From: Brevinematales bacterium
GTDB lineage: Bacteria; Spirochaetota; Brevinematia; Brevinematales; GWF1-51-8
Reading direction: 5' to 3'
Length of the DNA stretch: 38,257 nucleotides
Assembly: GCA_020059465.1 (NCBI GenBank)
Contig: JAGVBZ010000048.1
Coordinates: forward strand, 1-38,257
This document shows, one piece after another, positions 2,763 through 37,875 of this stretch. A program made the translations under genes and the position numbers. The notes below the pieces were generated by a model. It did not search any database. It was not told the origin of the DNA and saw nothing but the letters and a program-made list of their open reading frames with translations. The stretch's first letter is position 1; the number at the start of each line of letters is the position of its first letter.

Positions 2763-4472
2763 ATTCTGAATTACCACCTTACTCGTCACATCCTGATAGA
2801 CCGCCGTCCCCTCGAGTTCCGAATCGTCCCAATCCCCGTAATTCCGCACCTCGATTTCGTCCGGCGCCTGCCAAATTTGGAAACACCATATGATCTCAAA
2901 TTCTACTCCGAACGGAGCGTCACCGAATACGGTCGGCGCGATCTCGCCCTTATGCCACGCGAATACCGTCAGGTCGGACGCGTCGCCCGCGTTTTGCCCG
3001 ATGATCAGGAACGACGAATCGTTCCTGTAGGCGTACACGCTCGCCCCGTCGTAGAGCGTCAGGTCTTTTATCGACAATCCGAGAAGAGCGGTTTCCTCTT
3101 CCGTGCGATGGATCACCAGGTAATCGTAAAAATCGAAGTGTTTCAGGCCGTCGTCCACGATCACGTTCGCCATGAACTGCACGCGGTAGTACTTCCGGTT
3201 GATCGTCCCGGCGACTCCCCGCACCGTCTTCCTCTGCGGATTGAACTGCGCCGAAAACAGGGTGTAGTTCGCGGAGTTCATGATTTCATCGAGGTCGAGT
3301 TCGTCCCAAAGTATATTGTTCGATATCGTCGTATCGAACGACGCCGGAACGGGCAGAAATATTGCGTTCTGCAGACCCGCTCCCGAGATAATACTATTTC
3401 TTGTATAAAGGTACTCGAAACTAAAATTATTATAATTCTCAAACAGAACACTACAGTCTTCAAAAAAGTAATAATCGTTAATCTGATCGTATCCATCGGT
3501 AGGATAAAACTCGACTTGTCCGGTAGATTTATTAAAGCCTTTGAAATGGATTCGTAACTGGTTACATGGTTCGGCATTATAAATCACTAAAAATCCTGTT
3601 CCTTTAGAAACAAAAAGCGAATTGATAATCGTAGTATCAAATGTTCCTACATAATCATCGTAAACATTGACGATGCAATTTTCTAGATGGCCGCCTTCCG
3701 AATCTTGGGCAAATGCCCCGATATCACAATTTATAATAGAATCATAAACATAGGGAAATCTTCCGCCATCAATAGGGTTTTTGAAATGCCAATTACCGTA
3801 TTTCCATTTTGCGGAAGTTGTGTAATTTATCTCCACCTGCACAGGAAAACAAATGCTTTCGATCAGGTTATTTATGCCAAGTTTGACACCTAATATCTCT
3901 ACGGTCGCATCAACTCCAACATCGCCATCCTCAATCAGGTCGGGGATACCGACTTCACATAAACTATCTATATCATTCCATTCGTATGGCCATGAAACCG
4001 CCACCGTAGCGATTCCGGTTGTGCCGTCATAATCGATAATTGTGTTTCTGATCCATTCCGGACTGCCCGGACTGCCGACATCGTCCAGATAACAATTAAT
4101 ACACATTCCGGTGAAATAATCATCCGCAGTATAGAGCTCTTCTATTGGATGCAAATCTCCGCCCTCTAAATACATAAGGTGGATATGAGTCGCGTCGATA
4201 TAATTACCGGAGTATAAAGTCAGACTATCCGGATAAAGGAATTTCGGTTTAATTGACTGATAGAGCGCGACAATCTTCGCCGTGCCGGTGGCGACCGTGT
4301 GCAGGTAGGATAACCCGCCGTTCGCGATGATATCGTATGTGGCATATCCCGCAGTCCATAAATCCCTCAGTTCCACAGCCGCGTCGATTATCCGGGGTAC
4401 CGGCGCTTTAGTCCAAAAATCGCTCTTCTTTACGTTCCATGCCTGAAAAAGCAGGCTATTCCGTTCCGGCAT
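2760..4472 (-). CDS. Tail-tip / host-interaction protein, possibly beta-helical
   Basis: 570 aa from the ATG at 4472, chosen because AAGGAGAAAATT precedes it directly. The open frame continues upstream to 4643 without a stop (see the entry at 4473-4643). No catalytic motif was found. Residues about 240-430 hold repeated short strands of the type SIINCDIG, LENCIVNVY, TTIINSLFV and NSIISG, the pattern of a right-handed beta-helix. It lies between the tape measure and the fibre, so a baseplate, tip or host-binding role is inferred. Its codons are AT-richer around 3.4-4.3 kb than in the flanking genes. Confidence 0.6.
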   Translation of the reverse strand: MPERNSLLFQAWNVKKSDFWTKAPVPRIIDAAVELRDLWTAGYATYDIIANGGLSYLHTVATGTAKIVALYQSIKPKFLYPDSLTLYSGNYIDATHIHLMYLEGGDLHPIEELYTADDYFTGMCINCYLDDVGSPGSPEWIRNTIIDYDGTTGIATVAVSWPYEWNDIDSLCEVGIPDLIEDGDVGVDATVEILGVKLGINNLIESICFPVQVEINYTTSAKWKYGNWHFKNPIDGGRFPYVYDSIINCDIGAFAQDSEGGHLENCIVNVYDDYVGTFDTTIINSLFVSKGTGFLVIYNAEPCNQLRIHFKGFNKSTGQVEFYPTDGYDQINDYYFFEDCSVLFENYNNFSFEYLYTRNSIISGAGLQNAIFLPVPASFDTTISNNILWDELDLDEIMNSANYTLFSAQFNPQRKTVRGVAGTINRKYYRVQFMANVIVDDGLKHFDFYDYLVIHRTEEETALLGLSIKDLTLYDGASVYAYRNDSSFLIIGQNAGDASDLTVFAWHKGEIAPTVFGDAPFGVEFEIIWCFQIWQAPDEIEVRNYGDWDDSELEGTAVYQDVTSKVVIQN

Positions 4473-4706: not shown

Positions 4707-7700
4707 TACAGCATCCCCGCCCGTCGGCCGATAGTCGCCTCGTCGAGCGTATCCCCCTGCGCTTCCGAAATATTAATAGTTAATCCATTAAACGTCTTGC
4801 TTTGATCGACAATTTGCTCCTTCACCCCGATCTGCGACAGTTCCCGCGCGGCCTGCGCCTGCGAATACCCCTGACGCTGGTACTCCGTCATCGCCTGCCG
4901 GATATTCCAAAGGTTCTCCGTGTCGAACGCTGCGCCTTCCGTTAACTCGCGGATTCGGTCGATCAGCTTGATTTGCTCTTCGAGCTCCTGATTCTGTTCG
5001 TCGATTATTTCGGCGGTGCTTTCCTCGAGTTCCTTCCGCAGGTTCGCGATCTCGGTCATGATCTGGTATCTCTCTGTCTCATCTGTGATGATTTCAAGCT
5101 GCTCGGTAAGAACATCGATCTGGGACTGAAGATTGGCGTTGTAATCCTCTCCGCTTGCTTTGAGGTACGCCTCCTGCGCTTGAAGGATTTCCATCTGAGT
5201 TTCGAATGGGAGCCGCGCGAGAGCCTCGTTATTTTCATTAAGCTGTGTAATAGTCGCGGCAAGGTCGCCGTTCGCGCCGATTAATTGATCGATTAACGCC
5301 TGTACGTCGGCGCGGAAACCATGCGGAGCTGAGGAAATTGCGTCCATTAGAGACGGTAAATCTGCGATTAGACCGTGTTCATCTAATGCTAAGGAGTTAA
5401 ACATATCTTTATAGAGTTTGTATCTCGGTATTTTTGAAAGCTCTTCATCTGACATTCCTTTTTGTTTCTGCATATCCCAATAATTACTAAGTTCCCGGTA
5501 AAATATTCCCTGTAATTGACTTTGTGCGGGTTTTAATTGTTTTTCCGCTTTATCTTTTTCGATCTCAAGGAGTTTATTCGACTGTTCAAGCTGTATTTTC
5601 GGATCGCTGTAAAGGTTGTTGATCTGCGAAAGCGCGTCCCGGATACCGTTTAACTGATCCTGATACTTTTCGACCTTCGTCTGTATCTGGTCAAGAAGCT
5701 GTTCCTGCCGTTCGTATTCCGTATTCTCGCCTTTGATCGCGTCGATTATTCCGCCGGCAACAGTCATCAGTACGCCGAAAATCCCGCCGATCAGGTCCCC
5801 CGATGCGAAAGACTGAAATATACCAACCATCTCATTGACGGTCTCGACCACCTTTTTCGCCTTTTCGTTCCCTTCGCCGAATTTATCGACGAACGTACTC
5901 ATGTATCCCGTCATCCGGTCGAGCGCGGATTTCAACTCATCACTGCGTTGTTTTTCTATTTCCGCGATTTCGCCGATAGTTTCCTTCTCTTCATGCAGAA
6001 TACCCAACCGTTTACTTTCGTTCTTCGCGACCAGGAACCCGGTCTTTTCAATCGATTTTTCATTCTCTTTAATTTCTTCCCTGATTTTTAGGATTTCTTC
6101 GGTGTTTTTATAATATGCTATCGAATCGACTTGAATATTTTGCCGAATCTGCATTAATACGGCTTCCTGCTCTCTCAAGTTTTTATTGAGAAATTCGACC
6201 GAAGCCCCAGACATTTTATAATAAGAATACTGCGCTTTCAATAACTCGAGCTTTTTCTCGGCTGCCGACGGCTCCTTTTCCCCACCAGTATTTCCGGTAT
6301 CTCCGACTTCACCTACATTTTTTATCCCATCCATATATGACTTAATTCGACCAATAAAATCTTCCACATTTTTCATTCCCTGCGCGCGAAGATTATTTTC
6401 AAGTTGTTCGAGGGTAAGGTATCCTTGTTCGATAGCGAATGAGTACTGAGATACCCACGCATTCAATTCATTCAAAGCACTCGCTTTATCTTTTTGTAGT
6501 ATTTCTCGTTGATCGTCTATCTTCTTCATAAATGTTTTAAAGTATAAATCCCAATTACCGATATTGGCGTTAAACTCAGTATTAAAATAGGCTTTAAACT
6601 TTCCCCCGCCGCTTTCAAATACAGAGCTTACTGTTTTCTGCCCGCTTTTTATTGCATCATCCATCTTATTTAACTGAGCGGTCAAATCATTATAATACTC
6701 CAATGCCCAATCATAGGCGGTTTTTCCTTTTTTATCGTATTTCGATATAACAGTGTCTTTTATATATTTTCCTGTCATTTCTAGTGGGTCTTCCAGTAAG
6801 AATAACGGGATTTCTTTCGAATATTGTTCATATTGTTTTTTTACTTCTTTTAAATCCTCGACGAGTTTCATTTTTAAAAGCTTTTGCTTAGCTTTTAAAT
6901 TTTCAGCTTCTTCTTTTGTTAATTTTTTAGTAGAATTTTTCAGTTGATCGGTTACTTCTTTATAGCTTTTATAAGTTCCGATTAAGCCGGTGGTTGCGCT
7001 GTTCAAATCTTTTTTTCCTTCAAAAGCGGAATTAATATCCTTAATGAAAGGTTCGAATACAGGCATGAGTTTTTTGCCTAACTCGACCTGTAAATCTTGC
7101 AAATGTCCTTGAAGTATTTTCGTCTGGTTTGCGAAGCTGTCCTGCGTCCGGGCGAAATCGCCGACCGCCTTCTTCGACTGATCCATGATGAGCGCGAGCG
7201 TCGCCTGCGCCTTCGCCTGTTTCGATATTTCCCCGGCGGTGACCTTGAACCCCATCGCGAGGGCTTTCTCCTTCAGTTCCGCCTCGCCGATCTTTACGCC
7301 GAGCGAAACAAGCGCGTCCCGTTCCCCGAGCATCGCTTTTGTGATAATTTCGCTCGCCCGCGCGGCTCCGCCTTCGAGGTTCTGGAAACTCGCGAGGTCG
7401 ACCGAGAGTTTCTGCACCTGCCCGGACAGTTCGAGCGCTGCGGTCTCGCTGAAATCGAACCCTACCAGCAGGTCGCCGGTCGCCGCGAGGAGCTTTTCCG
7501 CTTCGAGGCCGGAAAGCCCGTAGGCGTTCTTAAGCTGGTTCGCCATATTCTGCGCCTGCGAGCTGATCGACGAGAATACCGTGTTGAGCTTGGAATGGAC
7601 TTCCTCGTACTGGCTCGCCATTTGTATAGATTCCATGATCTGCCCGGCCGCCCATTTGAACGCCTCGCCGATCTTCTGCCCGGCCCATACCGCCCCGGCC

Positions 7701-22450: not shown

Positions 22451-22960
22451 TTATTTCCTGACGAATTTCTTATTCGCATACGCCAGCGCGGATTCGAACT
22501 CGACCATCTTCGGGCCGATCATTCCCCAACGCCCGCGGTATCCCCGCATATCGATATGATGTCCGGGATTATTCCAATCGGGATATATTCCCCATCCGAC
22601 AGAATCGAGAAGATTATTCTCCTTTAGGAATTCCTTTATCACTTCGATACTCGAAAGAAAATCGATACCGGCGATATGAAAATCACCTGCGATAGCAAGA
22701 CGGACGATTTTCCCCGCCTTATCCTTTTTTACAAAATGCTTAGAGCTGGGCACATGTACCGACGAGGGATCGTACAGACAGTGAATCGCAAGTACCGCGC
22801 AGGGTTCGTAATGGGTCAGCCATTCCTGAAAATCAGAAAGGAATCGAAGGATTTTAATATCGGTGAACTGTTTCACCGACGGGGTAAGGAGCTTCCCGCC
22901 CTTATCGTCCACGCGGAATATATCCTGATGTTTGATGGTTGCGAATTCCTGATCGGTCAT
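22451..22960 (-). CDS. Endolysin, peptidase M15-like
   Basis: 169 aa. The pattern SSKHF-(18)-AGDFHI and GWGIYPDWNNPGHHIDMRG provides the His and Asp zinc ligands and downstream His of M15 D-Ala-D-Ala peptidases, which cut peptidoglycan cross-links. No signal peptide, so release depends on the holin. The start overlaps the holin stop (ATGA). Confidence 0.8.
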   Translation of the reverse strand: MTDQEFATIKHQDIFRVDDKGGKLLTPSVKQFTDIKILRFLSDFQEWLTHYEPCAVLAIHCLYDPSSVHVPSSKHFVKKDKAGKIVRLAIAGDFHIAGIDFLSSIEVIKEFLKENNLLDSVGWGIYPDWNNPGHHIDMRGYRGRWGMIGPKMVEFESALAYANKKFVRK

Positions 22961-23226
22961 TTTCCCTCCCCGGTGTTTTCAGGAGGGGTGTCGGTTTCAG
23001 GTAATTCCCCGCTTTGCGAAGACATGCCTTTCAGGTTCCTGATGATAAGAGATAGATTGATAGGCGTAGGGATGAGGGCGATAAACGCCCCTATGGTAAT
23101 GATGGCGCCGGATTCGTCGGAACTGATCGTACCGCGAGCGATCAGGTAATAAAGCGAACTTCCGATAACCCAAAGATCGGCCAGAATCATGGTGATAAGC
23201 GCGATAGGTTTACCTTTTAACCGCAA
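22957..23226 (-). CDS. Holin candidate
   Basis: 89 aa. Two hydrophobic segments (IALITMILADLWVIGSSLYY and AIITIGAFIALIPTPINLSL) and a charged tail. The start is a TTG preceded by GGGAGGGGATT. First gene of the late/lysis block and coupled to the endolysin, which together with topology supports a holin. Confidence 0.65.
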   Translation of the reverse strand: MRLKGKPIALITMILADLWVIGSSLYYLIARGTISSDESGAIITIGAFIALIPTPINLSLIIRNLKGMSSQSGELPETDTPPENTGEGK

Positions 23227-24035: not shown

Positions 24036-24255
24036 CCCCTGCCTCCTTTGGTTCCGCGCGGTCGCAGGTATTTCCCGGCTGAATCCTGTAGTTCATCCCT
24101 GCATCCAGACCAAGTTCTTTACAACGCCATTGAAAACCGAGAGAGCCGAATCCTATACCTTTGATTTCCTTAAAGATAGATGAAATACATCTTGAACACT
24201 TAACATCATTCTTTTTTCCCTTCCGGTAGTTTACGGCTATCTTTTTCTTCATCAT
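24022..24255 (-). CDS. Four-cysteine protein, paralogue 1
   Basis: 77 aa. Cysteines at CSRC, WRC and TCD plus the motif GFGSLGFQWRCKELGLD and TCDRA. A second copy lies at 26553-26783. Spacing CxxC-x22-C-x17-C suggests a zinc site. Function unknown. Start and stop overlap its neighbours. Confidence 0.75.
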   Translation of the reverse strand: MMKKKIAVNYRKGKKNDVKCSRCISSIFKEIKGIGFGSLGFQWRCKELGLDAGMNYRIQPGNTCDRAEPKEAGDADQ

Positions 24256-24539
24256 GCCGCTTTCCTCCTCTTGTCATTGCGAGGCCGCGTAGCGGTAGAA
24301 GCAATCGGTTCCTGAACAGACTGCTTCACTTCGTTCGCAGTGACATTTTTGTCATCCTGAGCACAGTCGAGGGATGATTTGATTATCCCCACCGCGAGGA
24401 ATACCCCCGCGACCACGGTATAGGTCACGAATACCCATTTAGTCATATCGTTCCACCCGGACAGCCCGCAGACCACCATAGCGGCGAACATAACAGCGTT
24501 CTCTACGCCGAACGCTGTTTTCCAATAATCACCCTTCAT
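24252..24539 (-). CDS. Small membrane protein with repeat-derived tail
   Basis: 95 aa with two hydrophobic segments (NAVMFAAMVVCGLSGW and WVFVTYTVVAGVFLAVGIIK). The last 40 residues (SLDCAQDDKNVTANEVKQSV onwards) are two dispersed repeats translated in frame. Overlaps the next start as ATGA. Function unknown. Confidence 0.65.
   Translation of the reverse strand: MKGDYWKTAFGVENAVMFAAMVVCGLSGWNDMTKWVFVTYTVVAGVFLAVGIIKSSLDCAQDDKNVTANEVKQSVQEPIASTATRPRNDKRRKAA
24275..24378. repeat. Two adjacent dispersed repeats in a membrane-protein gene
   Basis: GTCATTGCGAGGCCGCGTAG ... CGTTCGCAGTGACA and GTCATCCTGAGCACAGTCGA follow one another. Both are read in frame as the C-terminal tail of the 95-aa protein. 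Confidence 0.75.
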
Positions 24540-26787: not shown

Positions 26788-27231
26788 TTACTCCTCTGGA
26801 CACTTCGACTTTCGCTCACCTGCATTCTGCTTCGCAGAAGTAGACATGGTGTCCGTTCGGTTGCCGAGCGGAGCCGAGGCACGATGGTACCTTTTCAACG
26901 CCTCGATGACCTTCCGCGCTTCGTGCGTTTTGAGGTCGCCGGGGGATTTCACCGTCCGGGACACGATCTTACCGCAAAATCCCGGCAGGTTATTAACCGT
27001 CCCTTTTGCGAGATCCCGAATCTTAATTAACTGCGCGTCGGTGGCCATTCCCGCGGCGTTTAACAGCTTCTCGAAGACGATTTTAATATCCCGGTAACGC
27101 GCGTAACTCAATTCCGTAGAACTCTCTACGCCGAATCCGCCGAGAAGCGCGCGGTAGGATTCTTCGTCCATTCCGAGCCTCTGCTTCCAGATATGAATCT
27201 TGGCTATTTCAGCCTTACCGATTGTCTTCAT
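26788..27231 (-). CDS. gemA: Mu gp16 / GemA-family regulatory protein (DUF1018)
   Basis: 147 aa from ATG 27231 (ATGA overlap). AEIAKIHIWKQRLGMDEESY, RALLGGFGVESSTELS, YRDIKIVFEKLLNAAG and the later KVIEALKRYH helix match the DUF1018 family next to early genes of Mu-like phages, linked to modulation of host gene expression. The last 30 residues (RASAPLGNRTDTMSTSAKQN onwards) come from a dispersed repeat. Confidence 0.83.
   Translation of the reverse strand: MKTIGKAEIAKIHIWKQRLGMDEESYRALLGGFGVESSTELSYARYRDIKIVFEKLLNAAGMATDAQLIKIRDLAKGTVNNLPGFCGKIVSRTVKSPGDLKTHEARKVIEALKRYHRASAPLGNRTDTMSTSAKQNAGERKSKCPEE
26797..26887. repeat. Dispersed repeat in the gp16/GemA-like gene
   Basis: GACACTTCGACTTTCGCTCA, CATTCTGCTTCGCAGAAGTA and GAGCGGAGCCGAGGCACG follow in a row, related to 4655-4706. 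Translated in frame as the C-terminal tail. Confidence 0.65.
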
Positions 27232-27635
27232 CTTTTTCTCCAAAGAGGAAAAAATTGAATCGATACTGCTTTTCTACCATCCTTGTATATTTTTGTAGCA
27301 TTAACCTTTTTATATTCTATTTCGCCTAAAAAATTCTTGATTATTTTCTCTGCTTCTTCAACACTTGGAATACGTTCGGCAAAACAAATCGCCGAATTCA
27401 TGATTATACCAAAAGCCTTTTCTTCCTTCTTATCTCGATTCAATAAAAACAAATTAATACTGGTAAGATGAATAATAAGGACGGCATACTGTCCTTTTTT
27501 CTCGTCGGAATCAATTATTGAAATCCATTCGATTTTTTTATTATCGCGCAACCACTCGGTAAGTTCTTGAATCGTATTTGCCATTACATCCAAATAGCAA
27601 TCACAATCCGGCCATTTGTTTACAACGTTAATCAT
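27228..27635 (-). CDS. Hypothetical protein, AT-rich insert
   Basis: 135 aa from ATG 27635 (SD GGAGAGGACG). INVVNKWPDCDCYLDVMANT, IEWISIIDSDEKKGQYAVLI and EEAEKIIKNFLGEIEYKKVN suggest a compact alpha/beta protein. No family recognised. Base composition is clearly lower in GC than both neighbours, suggesting later acquisition. Confidence 0.7.
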   Translation of the reverse strand: MINVVNKWPDCDCYLDVMANTIQELTEWLRDNKKIEWISIIDSDEKKGQYAVLIIHLTSINLFLLNRDKKEEKAFGIIMNSAICFAERIPSVEEAEKIIKNFLGEIEYKKVNATKIYKDGRKAVSIQFFPLWRKR

Positions 27636-27758
27636 CGTCCTCTCCATTTCTAAACGGGGTGTCATGCGGGGCATTCGCCCCGCCGCACCCCTTTTCCATT
27701 TTAGTACCGTTTAGCTATTGAGTGCCTTGGGAACGGCGGCCCTTATCATCACTCTGCT

Positions 27759-28954: not shown

Positions 28955-29009
28955 CCGACCGCATGGATGCGGAAGTCCCGCGGGGACATGGATGTCTGGG
29001 AGCGGGACT
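28955..29009. repeat. Double-hairpin repeat, copy j
   Basis: CGACCGCATGGATGCGGAAG, then TCCCGC...GCGGGA around GACA-TGGA-TGTC. It lies between muB and the 84-aa gene. GTCGGAGGAAGATATG on its left opens an 11-codon leader (28911-28946). Confidence 0.85.
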
Positions 29010-29949
29010 ACAATAGTGCGGCGGCCGCTTCGTTGATGATCCCGATATCCAGTCCCTTATTATTCAGCGACATCAGACGCTGGGTGCGGATGATGAGATT
29101 GACGAGCTTCCGGGCGTTCCCCTGCGCGACCTTATGCAGGTGCGCGATAATCGATTCCGATGCGTCGAGGACGTTCCCGGTGATCATTCGCGTATCGTCG
29201 AGCGTCAATTGCGGGAGTTTGACCGCGAACATGCGGCTGAATATCTGGCGGTACTTCTCGGACACGGACGATATCATCTTCTTCAGCTTCTCGAGGCCGA
29301 TCAGCACGACGGGAACTTCGGCTTCGTCATGAATACGCCGGAGTACGTCGAGAGCCTTGACGTTCAGGTAATCCGCTTCGTCCACGATGATCATGCGCCC
29401 GGTTCCGCGCAGTTTTGCGACTATCTCGTCGAACAGCACGTCTTTCCTGCCGGTATTCTGCAGGCCGAGGCTGTCGGCAATCGCTTTCAGGATAGTCGCG
29501 TCTTTGTAAGTGGGGTTGACCCTAATAAGCGATGTGGTGGACGGGTGTTCGTGTGTGTAGAAATCGAGAGCCATCGTTTTGCCGAGTCCCGCATCGCCGA
29601 CGATAACGGTAATCATCTTGTCGGACTGCGCGATCTCGAGGCTGTACATGATGTTCTTGTAGATGCTGGTCGCCTGAAAATCCGGGCGTTTGAGCGATAT
29701 CCGTTCCTTCGTCCGTTCACGTTCGACCACATCCATCATCTTCGCAATAGCCGCGTCTTTGTCTCCCAAATAACTTCCGCTGAGCACCTGGCTGACTACC
29801 GATGACGATACGCCCGCCATCTGACCGAATTTGTTCTGCGAAATCCCTTTAAGGTCGATGAAGTTTTGGATCTCGCTGATCCTGCCTTTGAGCCGGTCTT
29901 CCTCGGTTGTCAAGTCGGGGCCGGTCTCGTCAAACATGCCGTCTGTCAT
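29008..29949 (-). CDS. muB: MuB-like AAA+ transposition target protein
   Basis: 313 aa from ATG 29949 (SD AGGAGGATTCT). N-terminal HTH (ISQNKFGQMAGVSSSVVSQV), Walker A VIVGDAGLGKTMALDF near residue 107, Walker B RMIIVDEADYLN near 175 and C-terminal helices. It delivers target DNA to the MuA-like transposase and stimulates it. The next gene upstream is a small membrane protein, not MuA directly. Confidence 0.92.
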   Translation of the reverse strand: MTDGMFDETGPDLTTEEDRLKGRISEIQNFIDLKGISQNKFGQMAGVSSSVVSQVLSGSYLGDKDAAIAKMMDVVERERTKERISLKRPDFQATSIYKNIMYSLEIAQSDKMITVIVGDAGLGKTMALDFYTHEHPSTTSLIRVNPTYKDATILKAIADSLGLQNTGRKDVLFDEIVAKLRGTGRMIIVDEADYLNVKALDVLRRIHDEAEVPVVLIGLEKLKKMISSVSEKYRQIFSRMFAVKLPQLTLDDTRMITGNVLDASESIIAHLHKVAQGNARKLVNLIIRTQRLMSLNNKGLDIGIINEAAAALL

Positions 29950-29957
29950 AGAATCCT

Positions 29958-30013
29958 CCTGTATCATGGATGATACAATCCCGCGAGTCCATGGATGGAC
30001 GAGAGCGGGACTG
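29958..30013. repeat. Double-hairpin repeat, copy k
   Basis: Hairpin 1 here is TGTATCAT-GGAT... pairing with GATACA, entirely different bases from other copies but the same fold. TCCCGC...GCGGGA encloses GTCCA-TGGA-TGGAC. Directly abuts the muB SD. Confidence 0.88.
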
Positions 30014-30298: not shown

Positions 30299-32350
30299 TT
30301 AATACGGCAACTGCTTTATCGTTCCTTCCGGCTCGTCTTTTTCGTCGTCATCCTGAGCTTCCACCGCGATCAGGTTATCCATCCCCGCGATCTGCGCGGT
30401 CTTATCTTCTCCGAGACGGATATGTTTCATTTTCTCCCGTTCGAGACGTTTCCGCTGGGCGAGTTGTTCCATATCCATAGGAACACCCGGTTTACTAAAT
30501 CCTTGCGGTTTTATCCATTCAGCCTTACAAATCAGCCGTCCGCCATCTGGATCGATTGGATTTCCGTTCTCATCCCGCTTATCAGGGACGAAAATATATA
30601 GCTTTGTCAGGTCGTCGCGGTCTATCCCAATCTCGACCGTCGTAGTCAGCCAATTTATCAGTTCGGGAGCGTCATACCATCGGTTATCCCATGTCACGCC
30701 TTCGTTTTGTACGACGCGCGTCATTCCTCTATGCAGTTTGAGTAGCGATATGGTTTCCGGGGAAAGTTTCCTGACTTCACGTTTCGCAATACCTTCTTTC
30801 CATACTTCCATTGGCATCAGCCCGTTCATTCCCGCGCCGCGCGACGGCGTGTGGTTGTAATCTTCGAATACCCCGGCGAGATAATCGCGAAGTTCGTCGA
30901 TAGTCGGGAGTTTTAATGTGTCTTTCAGACGGTCCGGAAGGTTTTCCGGTTTTTCTAAAATAGAGTTTCCCCCGTAACTTGCTAAAAATCTCGTTCCCGA
31001 ATTATTCAATACGCCCCAGAACGGCTCGACCGGCTTCGCCTTCGCGTTATACGGCAGCGCCCATACGACGTTTACCCCGAACCTGAAGAATGTTCCTACC
31101 GTCGTCGATTCATCCGCGATATCGTTCAATGCAAGACGTGTTTCCTCGGAAGCGAAGCGGTACTTGTTCATTTTATTGCGGCTTACGCCCATCGTCTGCT
31201 TGTTCTTATATGCTTTACCGTTATCGAGATAAACCGTATCCGGCACCCCGCACTTTCCGATACCGTCGGCGAGTGACGCGACGACCGCGCCGGTGTTTTC
31301 ATGCAGGTTGACGCTGAACCCGGTGATCATCTTCGAGCGCAGATCCATCCATACCACGACTACCGGGCGGACTGCCTTGTTTGCGATATATGGATGCTGA
31401 ATCCAGCAGTTCAATCTATGCCCGTCGGAGTTCCATATCTCGTTTACTCCGAGAGTGTTCGGATCGCGTTCGACATATCCCATACATTTTTCTTTAAATC
31501 TCATTTTTCCCTCCCGGTAATAAACATTCGATGCGTAATTCGAATTGTTCTTGATAAACCGGAGTACCGTATCGTAGGACGGGTAGGAACGCATCACCTC
31601 GCGCACGCATGCCGTATAATCCGCAATTCCTTCACTTCCAGACGGAATTTCACCGCCTTGAGCCTGCCGCATTGTAAGAAGTTTTAGCTCCTGAAGAGCT
31701 TTAGCGCGGGTATGGATTATTTTATGATAGATAGAAAGCGCGCGGAGTTTATTCTGGTTGTTCCATAACCCCATGATGGTCTGCCTATCCTCGACCGGCA
31801 CCTTGCTCATTCCTTTTTTCTTGCCGTATGCCGCCATCAGACCGCGCGCGCCCCGCTTTTTATATGCCGCTTCCCATCGTTTCAACGTGCGCGGGCAGAT
31901 CGAGCCTTGCCTTTTCAGAATTTCCGTCGAAATATCGCCGGAGTTATAACGTCCGACGAAGCACTCGTAAAGAATCGTCATATTTTTACCGTTATAAGAA
32001 GCGTCTACATAATTACGGAATTGGGTTAGTAAATACAGCCTGTCGTTCACGATCTCCTGCTGCCAACTCGGCTGGTCGATAATCAGCGCGGCGTCGTCTT
32101 TTTTCACTGTTTCGGCGAGCTTGTCCATGCGGGCGGCAGTGAGTTTATCCCGGAAATCGGCGGGAAGGCTGTCGATACGGATGGCGAGCGTCTTTCCTCC
32201 GCGCCCCCGTCCGTCGATAACAGCGAGCTTCCATTTTTCGCGGCGAGCGAGCGTGCGGAGCCATTCGGGAGATTTCCCGACCGCTTCGGCAAGCTCGACC
32301 GGCGAAACATATTCCCGCCGGAGTTCCTTGATCTTGAAAATTCTCGGCAT
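30299..32350 (-). CDS. muA: MuA-like DDE transposase
   Basis: 683 aa from ATG 32350. N-terminal HTH part (YVSPVELAEAVGKSPEWLRT), DDE core EIWNSDGHRLNCW, DTVYLDNGKAYKNKQ and KAKPVEPFWGVLN, followed by the beta-barrel and a C-terminal tail (EREKMKHIRLGEDKTAQ) that would meet MuB. It cuts at phage ends and joins them to target DNA for integration and replicative transposition. A dispersed repeat is translated near residue 225 (MRQAQGGEIPSGSEGIADYT), apparently tolerated before the catalytic core. Confidence 0.95.
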   Translation of the reverse strand: MPRIFKIKELRREYVSPVELAEAVGKSPEWLRTLARREKWKLAVIDGRGRGGKTLAIRIDSLPADFRDKLTAARMDKLAETVKKDDAALIIDQPSWQQEIVNDRLYLLTQFRNYVDASYNGKNMTILYECFVGRYNSGDISTEILKRQGSICPRTLKRWEAAYKKRGARGLMAAYGKKKGMSKVPVEDRQTIMGLWNNQNKLRALSIYHKIIHTRAKALQELKLLTMRQAQGGEIPSGSEGIADYTACVREVMRSYPSYDTVLRFIKNNSNYASNVYYREGKMRFKEKCMGYVERDPNTLGVNEIWNSDGHRLNCWIQHPYIANKAVRPVVVVWMDLRSKMITGFSVNLHENTGAVVASLADGIGKCGVPDTVYLDNGKAYKNKQTMGVSRNKMNKYRFASEETRLALNDIADESTTVGTFFRFGVNVVWALPYNAKAKPVEPFWGVLNNSGTRFLASYGGNSILEKPENLPDRLKDTLKLPTIDELRDYLAGVFEDYNHTPSRGAGMNGLMPMEVWKEGIAKREVRKLSPETISLLKLHRGMTRVVQNEGVTWDNRWYDAPELINWLTTTVEIGIDRDDLTKLYIFVPDKRDENGNPIDPDGGRLICKAEWIKPQGFSKPGVPMDMEQLAQRKRLEREKMKHIRLGEDKTAQIAGMDNLIAVEAQDDDEKDEPEGTIKQLPY
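31618..31680. repeat. Repeat-derived insertion in the transposase gene
   Basis: The segment translated as RQAQGGEIPSGSEGIAD shares its RQAQ- part with the CGGCAGGCTCA repeat at 21628. It lies in the linker before the catalytic domain. Confidence 0.5.
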
Positions 32351-32509
32351 TAACACCTTTCCTTGTCACCGCGATGTTTATTCGAACAGATTGCTTCGCT
32401 TCGCTCGCAATGACAGTCGTTTAATAGACCGAAGAGGGCATTGCGGCCCTCCCCGGCTTACAGGGTTCTATGAGATGACGACTCTTAAGAAGGCCGTCGT
32501 CCCATTTAC

Positions 32510-34398: not shown

Positions 34399-34778
34399 AA
34401 AATCCTCCCTCATTCGATTTCGTGCGAAACCGTTTGATAAATACATCCCTCACCCGGACGCCGGTAAAGCCGAAGCTGTCCGCCGGGCGGAGCCGAGGCG
34501 AGGGACGGCACGAAATCAACCCTTAGGAGGTCGAAGAAGACGGTTTTCGCCGATTTCGTACCAATTTATTAATTTTCACCTGAGTTATTTCAAAATACCC
34601 ATTTACTTTTATGGAAAAAACCCCTATAATAACCGTTGTTTCTTTGGGAAACCAATCTGAAACTCTATTATTACGGATAAAATCCGTGAAAATAGAAATA
34701 TTCTATTATGCTATAGTATATATACAGGAAAGTCAAATATTTTCCTTAATAATAGAAATATATTTTTTGAGGTGTGTT
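34399..34778. promoter_or_regulatory. Divergent control region between the two regulators
   Basis: 380 bp. TTTCGTGCGAAA (34418-34429) is a palindrome next to the leftward start, and CGATTTCGT recurs at 34415 and 34549. AATAGAA-ATA-TTCTATT (34691-34707) is a 7-3-7 palindrome, with AATAGAAATAT repeated at 34751. CTATAGTATATATAC (34711-34725) offers rightward -10 boxes. A repeat (CCGGGCGGAGCCGAGGCG) lies at 34476-34500. Operators and divergent promoters are inferred. Confidence 0.5.
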
Positions 34779-35279
34779 ATGGAAGTTCAAGACATTGATG
34801 TTGGAATGAATTACGGAATAAAAATCAAACAGATTCGGCAGATGTGGGGATTGAATCAGGAAAAATTTGCTGAAAAAACGGGTTTTTCTCCTCAAGCTAT
34901 ATCACAATATGAGAATAATATTGCTACTCCTAATTTAACTTTCATGAAGAATTTAATATTTAATTTGAACGTCAACCCGCTATGGTTCTTCATGGATCAG
35001 GGAGACGCGATCATCGACACCCAGTTCCAGCTCGGTGACGACTTTGAAGACCTGATGGAGCATTTCAAAGGAAGTTTCGCCCTCCAACAGTTATTTACTC
35101 AGGCGATGGCGTTGAAAAGAGAGGACGAGGAAGGTAAAGAGAATAAGGAATACTTTTACCAATGGCATGGTCTTGTTAATGGAATGAAGGATATTTTAAT
35201 GGGTATGAAGACGGAGCGGCAGAAGAACGTGGAGAAGCAGAGGCAGAAACCCGCGGGGCGCGGGGAGGAGAAGGGATGA
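34779..35279 (+). CDS. Rightward HTH repressor (lysogenic repressor candidate)
   Basis: 166 aa from ATG 34779 (SD GAGGTG). HTH_3 domain: IKIKQIRQMWGLNQEKFAEK, then TGFSPQAISQYENN and NVNPLWFFMDQGDA. The C-terminus is a charged helical tail, not a LexA-type peptidase, so induction would not be by RecA self-cleavage. Transcribed toward the phage left end like Mu c. Coupled to the following moron gene by ATGA. Confidence 0.78.
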   Translation: MEVQDIDVGMNYGIKIKQIRQMWGLNQEKFAEKTGFSPQAISQYENNIATPNLTFMKNLIFNLNVNPLWFFMDQGDAIIDTQFQLGDDFEDLMEHFKGSFALQQLFTQAMALKREDEEGKENKEYFYQWHGLVNGMKDILMGMKTERQKNVEKQRQKPAGRGEEKG

Positions 35280-35794
35280 GGATAGCAGGGTGGATCATTC
35301 TGCTCCTGACGGCATGGACGGCGGCGTACGCCGGGAAGTACGACGAGATACTGAAATTTCCGCTCGTACCGTTCGGGATCAGTAAGGCGGAGGTTGAAGA
35401 TAGATTAGGAAATTTAGCTGAATATACCCCTTTCATGGATAAATCAAAAAAGTCAGATTTTTTCTTTTCTGATTATTTCATTGCAGGAATATTATTTAAT
35501 GCTACTTATGACTTTCAAGATGGATTGTTACATTTTTTTAAATTAGTAGCTGTGGTAGACAAGACAGATTATCAATCCATGAAATATATTTACCGACAGT
35601 TTTATAATGCTTTAAATTCAAAATACACGTTAATTACTAATATAGTTCAGGATTATGATGGAAAAGGCGGATTGGAAAAATCTCAATACCTATCTAAAGA
35701 TAAAAGTTATAAAATATATATGGAGTTTATTTTGCCTTATATGAACGATAAGCTTGGAACTCCCTCATTTTCAATAGAATATAAATCCAAATAA
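35276..35794 (+). CDS. Secreted moron-like protein
   Basis: 172 aa. Signal peptide MRIAGWIILLLTAWTAAYAG, probable cut after AYA. The mature part (ILKFPLVPFGISKAEVEDRL and SKKSDFFFSDYFIAGILFNA) is AT-rich coded and unrecognised. It overlaps the repressor stop, so it is likely made in the lysogen, which suggests lysogenic conversion or superinfection exclusion. Confidence 0.7.
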   Translation: MRIAGWIILLLTAWTAAYAGKYDEILKFPLVPFGISKAEVEDRLGNLAEYTPFMDKSKKSDFFFSDYFIAGILFNATYDFQDGLLHFFKLVAVVDKTDYQSMKYIYRQFYNALNSKYTLITNIVQDYDGKGGLEKSQYLSKDKSYKIYMEFILPYMNDKLGTPSFSIEYKSK

Positions 35795-35830
35795 ATCACC
35801 CCGCTCCGGCGGAGGTAAAGGAGAAACTGA

Positions 35831-36058
35831 ATGAAGTATCTGATTGGATTCATTCGATATGTAGTTATCGGAAGTATCATTACTACATTATTTATTGGTT
35901 TTTCACATTTAAGCGGTTATACGAATAATATTTCTATAATCTCAACAGGTATTGGGTATATAATATGTTCAATTCCGCTGACCATGATAGCAATAGCTTC
36001 ATTTATAATACCGTACTTGAAAAGGATTAAAGATAAACTGGATGAAAAGAAAGAATAA
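35831..36058 (+). CDS. Small two-span membrane protein in the immunity operon
   Basis: 75 aa. Membrane segments IRYVVIGSIITTLFIGFSHL and GIGYIICSIPLTMIAIASFI, then a charged tail. SD AAAGGAG. AT-rich. The phrase CACCCCGCTCCGGC follows the stops of both this gene and the previous one. Likely expressed with the repressor; function unknown. Confidence 0.6.
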   Translation: MKYLIGFIRYVVIGSIITTLFIGFSHLSGYTNNISIISTGIGYIICSIPLTMIAIASFIIPYLKRIKDKLDEKKE

Positions 36059-36093
36059 TCCACCCCGCTCCGGCATGTCAGGAAGGGGGGAGG

Positions 36094-36807
36094 TTATTTA
36101 TCTTTGTTCTCATCGTAAAGCATCGCCCATGTATGTACCTGTTCGGTTTCCCGTTTGTGGATATAACGGATGCCCTTCGGGGTGATCCGCACTTCAGGCT
36201 TCAATCCTTTTTTATTCGGTTTGTAACGGAGCGTAAAATACCCGTTAAATAGAGCTTTTTCACTCGGTAAACCGTTTTCTTTGATCAGTCCGGTAGTCCG
36301 TTCGCCGTCGTTCAGCCGGATGGTCTTGAGATTGTCGATAAGGAACTTCACGCCGCCGAGCGGATAGAGCATCCTCGCTGCTTCTTCGAGGGTAACACCG
36401 TAGCTCGACCCGAAGAACCATTCGTACTCCATGACTTTCGGCAGCATCGCTTCTATTTTACTCTCGAGTTGGATTTTATCCTCGCGCACTTTCTTCCAAT
36501 ATTCCTTCTCGACCGCGATGAAGTACTTTCTTACCGCCTTTCCCGCCTCGTTATTTTCTACCATCGCCAATTCTTTAGCAGTGTCCAGAGTAAGTAGATA
36601 TTCTTTTTCACGTCTTCCTCCGGTACTTTTACTCAAATTTGAGTAAAAGTCTTCTCCCTCTATAAATCCATACAGTTCGATACGGCGTGTAATCCAGTCG
36701 TTAAACCTTGTCTCAATTTCAAGTTTATCCCAGAGTTCGCGGGCATTGACCGTTTTCTCGGTAGTCCCGTCGATCTCCTTCTCGTGAATGGTGACCAGTT
36801 CGTTCAT
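36094..36807 (-). CDS. AntA/AntB-type antirepressor
   Basis: 237 aa, SD GGAGGGATT. VNARELWDKLEIETRFNDWI, EGEDFYSNLSKSTGGRREKE and YLLTLDTAKELAMVENNEAG are the AntA/AntB domain. The C-terminal part (EAARMLYPLGGVKFLIDNLK ... VRITPKGIRYIHKRE) is a winged-helix-like phage antirepressor domain. It would relieve repression and trigger lytic growth. Convergent with the repressor operon. Confidence 0.85.
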   Translation of the reverse strand: MNELVTIHEKEIDGTTEKTVNARELWDKLEIETRFNDWITRRIELYGFIEGEDFYSNLSKSTGGRREKEYLLTLDTAKELAMVENNEAGKAVRKYFIAVEKEYWKKVREDKIQLESKIEAMLPKVMEYEWFFGSSYGVTLEEAARMLYPLGGVKFLIDNLKTIRLNDGERTTGLIKENGLPSEKALFNGYFTLRYKPNKKGLKPEVRITPKGIRYIHKRETEQVHTWAMLYDENKDK

Positions 36808-36846
36808 AATCCCTCCCGGAAGCCGATTCGATAGGATCGGTAGAGT

Positions 36847-36852
36847 ATTATA
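36847..36852 (-). promoter_or_regulatory. Candidate -10 box of the antirepressor gene
   Basis: TATAAT on the minus strand, with GGTGCGCGGAAA (36859-36870) just upstream, an inverted relative of the TTTCCGCGCC boxes. The -35 is poor, so a regulator may be needed. Confidence 0.4.
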
Positions 36853-36898
36853 CCGCCGGTGCGCGGAAATTCCTATCCTTTCGGAAAATATTTCGTTG

Positions 36899-37031
36899 TT
36901 TCCGCGCCAACCTATTGACTTTTGCCGCAGAGCAAGCCCCGCTTGGTATAATTATTGTCCATAACAAGAATTATCTATAATATTTTCCTATATTTCCGCG
37001 CCAACCTATTGACTTCCGTCGCGGGGCAAGC
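36899..37031. repeat. Two 39-bp direct repeats in the antA control region
   Basis: TTTCCGCGCCAACCTATTGA, then CTT and a variable part ending GCAAGC, at 36899-36937 and 36993-37031 (23 identical bases, then about 10 of 16). Each contains TTGACT. TATAAT boxes at 36947 and 36976 follow. Likely operators or duplicated promoter parts for the rightward operon. Confidence 0.65.
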
Positions 37032-37064
37032 TAATGTGTGTGTATCAAAGACGAGGAGAAAAGG

Positions 37065-37277
37065 ATGACAAGAACGGAAAAAACGCCGTCGGCGGAACGG
37101 TTTATCAAGCGGAAAGCGGATATCGCGTCGATGTTGACCCGTTTACAGAAAGGCATCGCGGAGTACGGGAAAGGCCGGGAAGACTATTTCGGAAAGTTCG
37201 ACGATTTGGGGTATGTCAAAGAGATGATCACCCGCGCGAGCGATTTTCTGTTTCAGGAAGGCGAGAACGCGGAATAG
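37065..37277 (+). CDS. Small helical hypothetical protein
   Basis: 70 aa from ATG 37065 (SD GAGGAG). TRTEKTPSAERFIKRKADIA and MLTRLQKGIAEYGKGREDYF; no family recognised. First gene of the rightward end operon. Confidence 0.6.
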   Translation: MTRTEKTPSAERFIKRKADIASMLTRLQKGIAEYGKGREDYFGKFDDLGYVKEMITRASDFLFQEGENAE

Positions 37278-37286
37278 GAGGCGGTA

Positions 37287-37502
37287 ATGAAGGTCGAAAG
37301 GATAATTAAAGAAGGATGGGCGATAATCGGCGGCCGGATATGTGATTACGCCTATATCGCGCGGAACAATAATCCGCTCGCGGCATACGCGGCGATCAAA
37401 CGGAGTTATACCGGCGGGCTGGCCCGGCAGGTCTGGAACGGCCTCGTGATCTATCTACTCCACGGGATCGGCGCGTATTACTACGGGATAGACGCCGCCT
37501 AA
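37287..37502 (+). CDS. Small hypothetical protein
   Basis: 71 aa, SD GGAGGCGGTA. IIKEGWAIIGGRICDYAYIA and WNGLVIYLLHGIGAYYYGID, partly hydrophobic, Tyr-rich. No family. Followed by a terminator. Confidence 0.6.
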   Translation: MKVERIIKEGWAIIGGRICDYAYIARNNNPLAAYAAIKRSYTGGLARQVWNGLVIYLLHGIGAYYYGIDAA

Positions 37503-37523
37503 AAAACCTATCGAACATCAAAT

Positions 37524-37550
37524 AACCCCTGCCAGCGCGGGGGTTTTCTT
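37524..37550 (+). terminator. Rho-independent terminator
   Basis: AACCCC, loop TGCCAGCGCG, GGGGTT followed by TTCTT. Closes the two small rightward genes. Confidence 0.75.
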
Positions 37551-37635
37551 ATCGGTGCCTTAATAACTTTTAACAATTTCCCGCGATTAAGGGTATGCAA
37601 TAAGGAGGGTTCTGCGTTATCTATAGGAGGATCGG

Positions 37636-37875
37636 ATGACAGGACGTCGATTAAGGGAGGTGCGTTTATCGCATGGATGGACGCAGGCACAGATGGCGAG
37701 CGCGGTGGGTTATCGTCAGAATACTTGGTGCCAATGGGAGAAGGGGCGGCGGCGTGTTCCGTCGGAGGTTATAGAATCTCTCGTCCGGGAACTGAACGTT
37801 TCGGCGGATTATCTCCTTCGGGGAAATCTGCCGATGTATCGGAATTCGCTCACGGACGCACGTTGGTTTTTTTAG
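37636..37875 (+). CDS. HTH_3 regulator near the terminus
   Basis: 79 aa, SD AGGAGGATCGG. LREVRLSHGWTQAQMASAVG followed by YRQNTWCQWEKGRRRVPSEV and LNVSADYLLRGN, a Cro/C1-type domain. Located where Mu has its c repressor, so its role beside the 166-aa repressor is open. It has its own terminator. Confidence 0.8.
   Translation: MTGRRLREVRLSHGWTQAQMASAVGYRQNTWCQWEKGRRRVPSEVIESLVRELNVSADYLLRGNLPMYRNSLTDARWFF

Follow-up and report, generated by a model that had tools for sequence, protein, structure and literature searches.

Genes that are coexpressed with the immunity repressor defend against other phages in the Gordonia phage CarolAnn (genes 43 and 44) and in lambda (cI-rexA-rexB; PMC6426606). 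In the Pseudomonas Mu-like phage Fc02 (olg1/sie1 and gene 10), the exclusion gene sie1 is apparently part of the repressor transcript and is expressed in the lysogen (PMC9936078). Glo of a Vibrio cholerae phage is a soluble periplasmic exclusion protein (mentioned in PMC3952083), SieA of P22 is an inner-membrane protein of 162-164 amino acids (aa) with three predicted spans that blocks DNA injection (PMC10883804), and Ltp of the Streptococcus thermophilus phage TP-J34 is an exported protein whose gene belongs to the lysogeny module, follows a cI-like gene closely and is transcribed in the prophage (PMC3952083). Here, we describe a slot in the genome of a Mu-like phage of an uncultured spirochaete, which is bounded by the repressor and antirepressor-like genes and is occupied by two small open reading frames (ORFs), ORF2 and ORF3. 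The complete genome of this phage, with the ends TGT…ACA, is the window of this study, that is, the whole stretch of DNA analysed (38,257 nt; contig JAGVBZ010000048.1 of the Brevinematales bacterium assembly GCA_020059465.1).

Two further groups of genes are relevant to the slot. In Pseudomonas Mu-like phages, non-homologous genes of deviant composition are located at fixed places, as morons or regions of genomic plasticity (PMC4378225). P13 (PF05628) is listed among the Borrelia outer membrane proteins which form pores or barrels or are orthologous to known ones (PMC4939628). Mu-like phages of spirochaetes seem to be little described: a narrow full-text search, the results of which were judged by title and abstract opening, found no paper on them, and the terms searched in a review of superinfection exclusion (PMC11436027) gave no mention of spirochetes.

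Two predicted envelope genes behind the repressor

The first-pass annotation of the region had proposed that two AT-rich genes, for a signal-peptide protein and a two-span membrane protein, follow the repressor in the same operon, one of them by an ATGA overlap. Both genes are found on the plus strand, ORF2 at 35276-35794 and ORF3 at 35831-36058, and the ATG of ORF2 indeed shares ATGA with the TGA of the repressor (35276-35279). Their GC content is 0.34 and 0.29, respectively, against 0.50 for the window, in agreement with the AT-richness proposed. The repressor (34779..35279, plus strand, 166 aa) matches Pfam HTH_3 (8e-11) and the PHROG category of transcriptional regulators/repressors. Its start is likely 34779 and not the first ATG at 34611, because the ribosome site, the HTH domain and the start of a 60% identical homologue favor the former. 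It is plausible that the repressor, ORF2 and ORF3 form one operon. A promoter-like site is located upstream (34602..34630, plus strand, TTTACT-17-TATAAT), which is a consensus match only (10/12); promoter-like matches in 34400-37650 number 14 versus 7.1 in shuffles, in an AT-rich background and with some of them inside ORF2. The right edge of the slot is formed by the convergent antirepressor-like gene with AntA and KilAC domains (36094..36807, minus strand; Pfam AntA 3.9e-25, ANT 9e-6).

ORF2, the first cargo gene of the slot, encodes 172 aa and is predicted to be exported. All targeting and topology calls were made by hydropathy, in place of signal-peptide or topology predictors. Only one stretch of the protein is hydrophobic, at the N terminus (11-mer mean 2.41 from residue 3). 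Behind it, AYA|GK resembles a site for signal peptidase I, with the predicted mature part from residue 20 onward. By eye, no lipobox is present. The GC content breaks inside the gene, from 57% in the first 120 nt to 27% in the remainder, and ORF2 is thus a compositional chimera. Searches of Pfam, PHROGs, NCBIfam and PADLOC with E up to 1 gave no family for it; IMG/VR returned only the same phage and the phage records returned nothing. Three weak genome matches (E 0.004-0.0098), located in unrelated genes, and one PDB match (E 0.35) were dropped.

ORF3 encodes 75 aa with a charged C-terminal tail. Its above-threshold 19-mers begin at residues 3-11 and 34-46, and these two hydrophobic segments bear out the proposed two-span topology. 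Its only credible homologue, of 49% identity, is located in another genome of the same genus (G001:C115:461-679). Over 72 aligned codons, the two genes differ 32/18/38 times at the first, second and third codon positions, with dN 0.42 and dS 1.86; the resulting ratio of about 0.23 is rough, because dS is near saturation. As judged from these substitutions, the comparison shows ORF3 to be a real gene under purifying selection. It is present in two of the four genomes of the genus, the phage's own included, and has no other convincing occurrence among 392 genomes. Its matches in Pfam, PHROG and NCBIfam (the best being DUF2198, 0.0016) were rejected as weak and typical of membrane segments, those of Pfam and NCBIfam being below the curated cut-offs. 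A profile search retrieved G001 again, together with two weak extras (E 3e-5 and 6e-5) which were left uncounted, as they belong to other families and have in-frame stops, and a G085 match (E 8.6e-4) was dropped because it contains a stop.

In G001, the ORF3 homologue adjoins a Phage_Mu_F gene (2.2e-13) related to that of the window phage itself (tblastx 9e-29), and the pair is flanked by copies of the 3′ end of a SNF2-type helicase gene. From this arrangement, ORF3 appears to be carried, within the host genus, by a further small unit that looks mobile. The helicase gene end occurs three times in this locus (L085, on G001:C115), at 396-425, 2166-2195 and 3008-3037. The three copies bound two units, one with the MuF-like gene and the ORF3 homologue and one with a weak PIN-domain match; the layout looks as if small elements had inserted in tandem, rebuilding the gene end.

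Proposed exchange of the gene body in a sister phage

The sister phage (IMG/VR contig 3300038436_000184, L010) carries a repressor and a transposase which are 60% and 61% identical to those of the window, and an AntA gene (5.6e-24) at the same place. ORF2 and ORF3 are absent from its fetched part, and a different gene is found there instead. This one gene (L010:5476-6030) fills the slot between repressor and antirepressor; its product of 184 aa is hydrophobic at the N terminus, contains membrane segments and has no homology to ORF2 (BLASTP E 2.1). The protein is above the cut-off of Pfam Borrelia_P13 (2.4e-7; 31.3 vs 25 bits) and below the equivalog cut-off of NCBIfam P13_porin (4e-9; 36.6 vs 100 bits); we regard it as a P13 relative and not as a proven porin. 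ORF2 and ORF3 have no P13 match in Pfam or NCBIfam.

Among the P13 loci fetched, the closest to the slot protein of the sister is encoded on the chromosome of the very host of the window phage (contig C29 of its metagenome-assembled genome, MAG; L076), with 58% identity over residues 13-184, followed by one of 55% in the same-genus genome G002. The host has three chromosomal matches of the P13 family, two of them above the cut-off. The GC content of the slot gene is 37% versus 45% in the host P13 gene, so that the former is not a very recent copy of the latter. Its first 12 residues have no match in the host protein, which is no proof of a joined leader on its own, since signal peptides diverge fast.

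The two unrelated genes share their start and their 3′ side. The conserved gene start (35266..35296, plus strand) comprises the ribosome site, the ATG and about 7 codons (M[RK]xAGWI), and 15 of the 21 nt after the ATG are identical in ORF2 and the slot gene of L010. Out of 3,444 start pairs (82 of the window by 42 of L015), eight reach 15 matches. Seven of these are homologous genes (56-76% identity, E <=2e-24) and the slot pair is the only unrelated one. On the 3′ side, TAAATCACCCCGCTCCGGCGGA starts at the ORF2 stop and TAAATCACCCCCGCGCGGGCGGA starts 9 nt past the last base of the sister's stop; none of 2000 shuffles of the sister's intergenic region scores as high. Our reading is that the gene body has been exchanged between two conserved ends.

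Because the sister phage has a different body between shared ends, the slot is probably, on this comparison of sequences, an exchangeable position for envelope cargo. The cargo also shows what is expected of morons, namely, a deviant composition and presence or absence between related phages. The proposal that morons with an envelope role are tied to the repressor is therefore strengthened, as the slot of the sister holds another envelope protein, related to the host's P13.

A box at the 3′ end of each cargo gene

The first-pass annotation had also noted a repeat following both stops. The 14-mer CACCCCGCTCCGGC is found exactly at 35797-35810 and 36061-36074, 2 nt past each stop. Copy 1 of the box (35792..35814, TAAATCACCCCGCTCCGGCGGAG) includes the former and has a terminator-like hairpin on the minus strand only; copy 2 with its hairpin (36061..36095) lies between the convergent cargo and antirepressor genes. 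The window holds 67 exact direct 14-mers occurring more than once, many of them overlapping; CACCCCGCTCCGGC is considered non-random because two stops in succession are followed by it at an identical distance. If up to 2 mismatches are allowed, it has three matches in the window versus 0.48 expected. Its two exact copies are both in the phage, with none elsewhere in the MAG, and CACCCCGCTCCGGC was accordingly rejected as a host-wide repeat.

In the four genomes of the genus, CACCCCNCTCCGGC (the 14-mer with one open position) has three exact matches, two of which are those of the phage, the third being located in G001. The G001 box, with one base changed in comparison with CACCCCGCTCCGGC, is located 2 nt past the stop of the ORF3 homologue, which is the phage spacing, and outside long frames (the longest being 33 and 57). 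We read it as running into TGGGTTTTTATTT, a terminator-like sequence. The fold of 36050-36110 has -20.8 kcal/mol (z -1.99) and is equalled by 7 of 200 shuffles. In the sister phage, the fold of the equivalent region is not superior to that of its shuffles (z -0.14 and -0.23), which argues against a conserved strong hairpin.

Looser patterns gave matches of another kind. For the shorter ATCACCCCGC, the MAG has 19 matches (one in the phage and 18 elsewhere) versus one for the reversed-pattern control; the 18 host sites are explained by codon usage, since all of them lie, in the pieces fetched, in open frames of at least 120 codons on one strand. A one-mismatch search of the four genus genomes gave 16 further matches, 16/16 in an open frame of at least 100 codons on either strand. 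These are near background, as the reversed-pattern control gave 11 versus 19. TAAATCACCCCGCC had one match in 60 genomes, inside a coding frame, and was set aside; the frame is presumably that of a UvrA-like gene.

The best reading of the 3′ box is that of a gene-end element which travels with the cargo, one box delimiting each of the genes on its 3′ side. Perhaps it derives from a terminator, and a role in recombination is possible.

Slot genes in other Mu-like phages of the phylum

A search with a profile of the two transposases had matches of E 1e-20 or better in 11 of the 392 genomes available for the phylum, one of these being the MAG. Eleven regions were fetched from the 10 other genomes, and a repressor-like gene of HTH or S24 type is present in each. 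Together with the window and L010, the phages number 13, and 12 of them are assessable, the repressor of L070 being at a contig edge. A gene for an exported protein is located directly downstream of the repressor, on the same strand, in 5/12 (the window, L010, L063, L064 and L069); three of the 10 other assessable loci thus also back the cargo proposal. The slot gene of L063 encodes a lipoprotein-like protein of 67 aa and that of L069 one of 202 aa. In L064, a secreted protein of 300 aa (DUF4352, 4.8e-8) is followed by a membrane protein of 133 aa (phrog_27816).

No such gene exists in L060, L061, L062, L066 and L068, the membrane neighbor of L065 is convergent, and L067 is doubtful, as its start is uncertain though it is flagged by the hydropathy rule. 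When this crude rule is applied to the 46 other ORFs taken as genes of the window phage, 7 are exported or membrane-bound (Fisher p 0.059, or 0.018 with L067).

Homologous secreted proteins (27% identity, E 2e-13) are encoded at L064:6600-7502 and L065:1573-2409, in different spirochaete families. The L064 copy is directly behind the repressor and the L065 copy about 2 kb further on.

Function of the cargo

From their position and targeting we infer superinfection exclusion or a change of the host surface as the role of ORF2 and ORF3; co-transcription, expression in the lysogen and the route of recombination are inferred as well. Both genes would be read from the repressor transcript and hence be made in the quiet lysogen. 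ORF2 would be exported to the periplasm or surface, ORF3 would form a hairpin in the inner membrane and, together or separately, the two would stop incoming phages at the envelope. Recombination would keep the gene start (the ribosome site and the first signal-peptide codons) and the 3′ box and replace the body. The two proteins probably remodel the surface of the infected cell. Of the individual readings, we prefer the one in which they keep other phages from entering at the envelope, and we put it forward tentatively, as somewhat short of an even chance.

Several points weigh against exclusion by such a cargo. Seven of the 12 phages have no clear exported, codirectional gene behind the repressor, and the enrichment of exported genes at this position is weak (p 0.059) and suggestive at most, among phages that are related to each other. 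The exchange slot is seen in two phages only. ORF2 has no detectable homologue, and two single-sequence AlphaFold models were too poor for use (pLDDT 39.4 and 55.4). PADLOC finds no defence family for ORF2 or ORF3 at E up to 1, and no match of known exclusion function exists in Pfam, PHROG or NCBIfam; in the absence of any family match, the two proteins are placed outside the named superinfection exclusion (Sie) families. Their expression in the lysogen is probable, as read from the operon layout. A cargo of P13 type, from a surface or pore family, fits a surface change equally.

Such a change might be the whole function. The cargo would then alter the envelope (permeability, surface antigens or attachment) to the benefit of the lysogen and thereby of the prophage, with no action against phages. 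The relationship of the sister's cargo to P13, an outer membrane protein of Borrelia (PMC4939628), points in this direction, as do the P13-family proteins already encoded by the host chromosome and the slot genes of L063, L064 and L069, which are lipoprotein-like or secreted and have no accepted defence match (a PADLOC RT match for L064, 0.0012, was too weak to be accepted). Nothing specific on ORF2 or ORF3 supports it, however, and we consider it a rather unlikely account of the locus, though it overlaps with exclusion, because surface proteins are also phage receptors. It is improbable that the genes are passive passengers of a mosaic genome, acquired horizontally and persisting by chance with no selected role. 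An AT-rich orphan such as ORF2, with a composition break inside it, could be one, but dN of ORF3 (0.42) is below dS (1.86, near saturation), ORF2 retains its open frame, export signal and coupling to the repressor, and the sister phage likewise retains an export-competent slot gene.

Pairs of holins and spanins are of the size class of a small two-span membrane protein and a secreted protein. This resemblance would suit an envelope function of the lytic phase, such as accessory lysis of holin/antiholin type, encoded beside the repressor by chance. We hold this for quite improbable: the genes share the plus strand with the repressor, whereas the early genes and the 42 minus-strand ORFs taken as genes run the other way, they match no holin or spanin family in Pfam, PHROG or NCBIfam, and small membrane proteins on the minus strand (22957-23226 and 24252-24539) are better placed for lysis. 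The position between the repressor and antirepressor genes would also suit proteins that sense the envelope and modulate either regulator in the control of lysogeny. However, the body of the cargo varies and the repressor is conserved, which makes a specific partner role very unlikely, the least probable of the explanations considered.

The fixed gene start and the fixed 3′ box may serve as short homology arms with a swapped body between them, a proposal that is possible but doubtful. Any captured coding body, host surface genes such as P13 included, would in this way become exported and coexpressed with immunity. The 3′ box would mark each cargo gene and permit tandem stacking (ORF2, then ORF3), and it would be common to the phage and the other unit of mobile appearance found in this host genus.

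Phage genome, host and insertion site

As expected of a transposable phage, the window encodes a Mu-type DDE transposase (30299-32356; Pfam DDE_2 2.4e-10, PHROG transposase 4.6e-95) and a MuB-like ATPase (29008-29967; PHROG DNA transposition protein 1.2e-64). Contig C1 of the MAG terminates exactly at the window ends. The IMG/VR contig 3300007351_000039 represents the same phage (99.99% over 7,982 bp) and runs 99 bases beyond the phage end; 99/99 of these are identical to C6:96075-96173 of the MAG (L007:7983-8081, L038:1501-1599). This match of the flank identifies the MAG as the phage host and C6 as the unoccupied site, the one insertion site seen. The interrupted host gene, with the insertion near its 3′ end, is presumably mutS, as judged from its motifs. 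This mutS-like gene is uninterrupted in C6, and the IMG/VR copy of the phage sits in its 3′ part; a lysogen with the phage inside it could be a mutator. Searches of IMG/VR for further relatives (with the repressor, the transposase, the right-end gene and an ORF3 profile) invariably returned one or both of these two phage contigs, 3300007351_000039 and 3300038436_000184.

The antirepressor AntA domain is common to the window and the sister phage, and the C-terminal KilAC (ANT) match is found in the window only (36094-36807; L010:6117-6887); this difference is possibly a second body swap adjoining the slot. A perfect 26-bp palindrome around CTCAAATTTGAG is located within the antirepressor coding sequence, at 36625-36650. 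Further to the right, the TTTCCGCGCCAACCTATTGACTT element occurs twice (36899-36921 and 36993-37015) upstream of the small right-end genes and resembles a duplicated promoter or operator. Its relatives in the sister phage (L010:6958-7049 and 7345-7430) precede both small right-end genes of that phage. Near its right end, the phage encodes a third HTH regulator (37636-37875), which is 63% identical in the sister. Another AT-rich gene (27228-27674, GC 0.35) is found amid GC-richer phage sequence; in the sister phage, the protein is 59% identical and the start region of the gene is conserved as well.

Comparison with known systems

The locus joins a transposable phage, the MAG of its host, an exchange point for envelope proteins and a sister phage with a host-type surface gene. 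It yields a few testable candidates for proteins of exclusion or surface conversion in spirochaetes, and may be a model for prophages that acquire exported cargo with no new signals for export or expression.

Similarly to CarolAnn and lambda, two genes would be read with the immunity repressor in the lysogen and one of them encodes a membrane protein (PMC6426606). The partner differs: gp44 and RexA have a weak DUF4747 match, whereas here one partner carries an export signal and has no family match. Fc02 resembles the window phage in being Mu-like and in having a ner-like early operon on the other strand (PMC9936078), but in the window phage the cargo is downstream and is predicted to be exported or membrane-bound. 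Nearest in kind to ORF2, as far as its brief description goes, is Glo (PMC3952083), the exclusion function of ORF2 being only predicted. ORF3 would share with SieA the character of a small phage protein of the inner membrane made from the prophage (PMC10883804), with 75 aa, two spans and a putative role. Ltp, for which exclusion has been shown, differs in being a lipoprotein and in having a Gram-positive host (PMC3952083); ORF2 has no lipobox. The likeness to Borrelia P13 concerns the slot protein of the sister phage, which scores above the cut-off of Pfam and is preceded by the gene start typical of the slot. Morons of the classical kind bring a promoter and a terminator of their own, whereas the cargo described here seems to depend on the transcript of the repressor and on a shared gene start. 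In conclusion, exclusion genes coexpressed with a repressor are already known, and the spirochaete setting, the capture of a host-type gene and the chimera of leader and body are what this locus would add to them.
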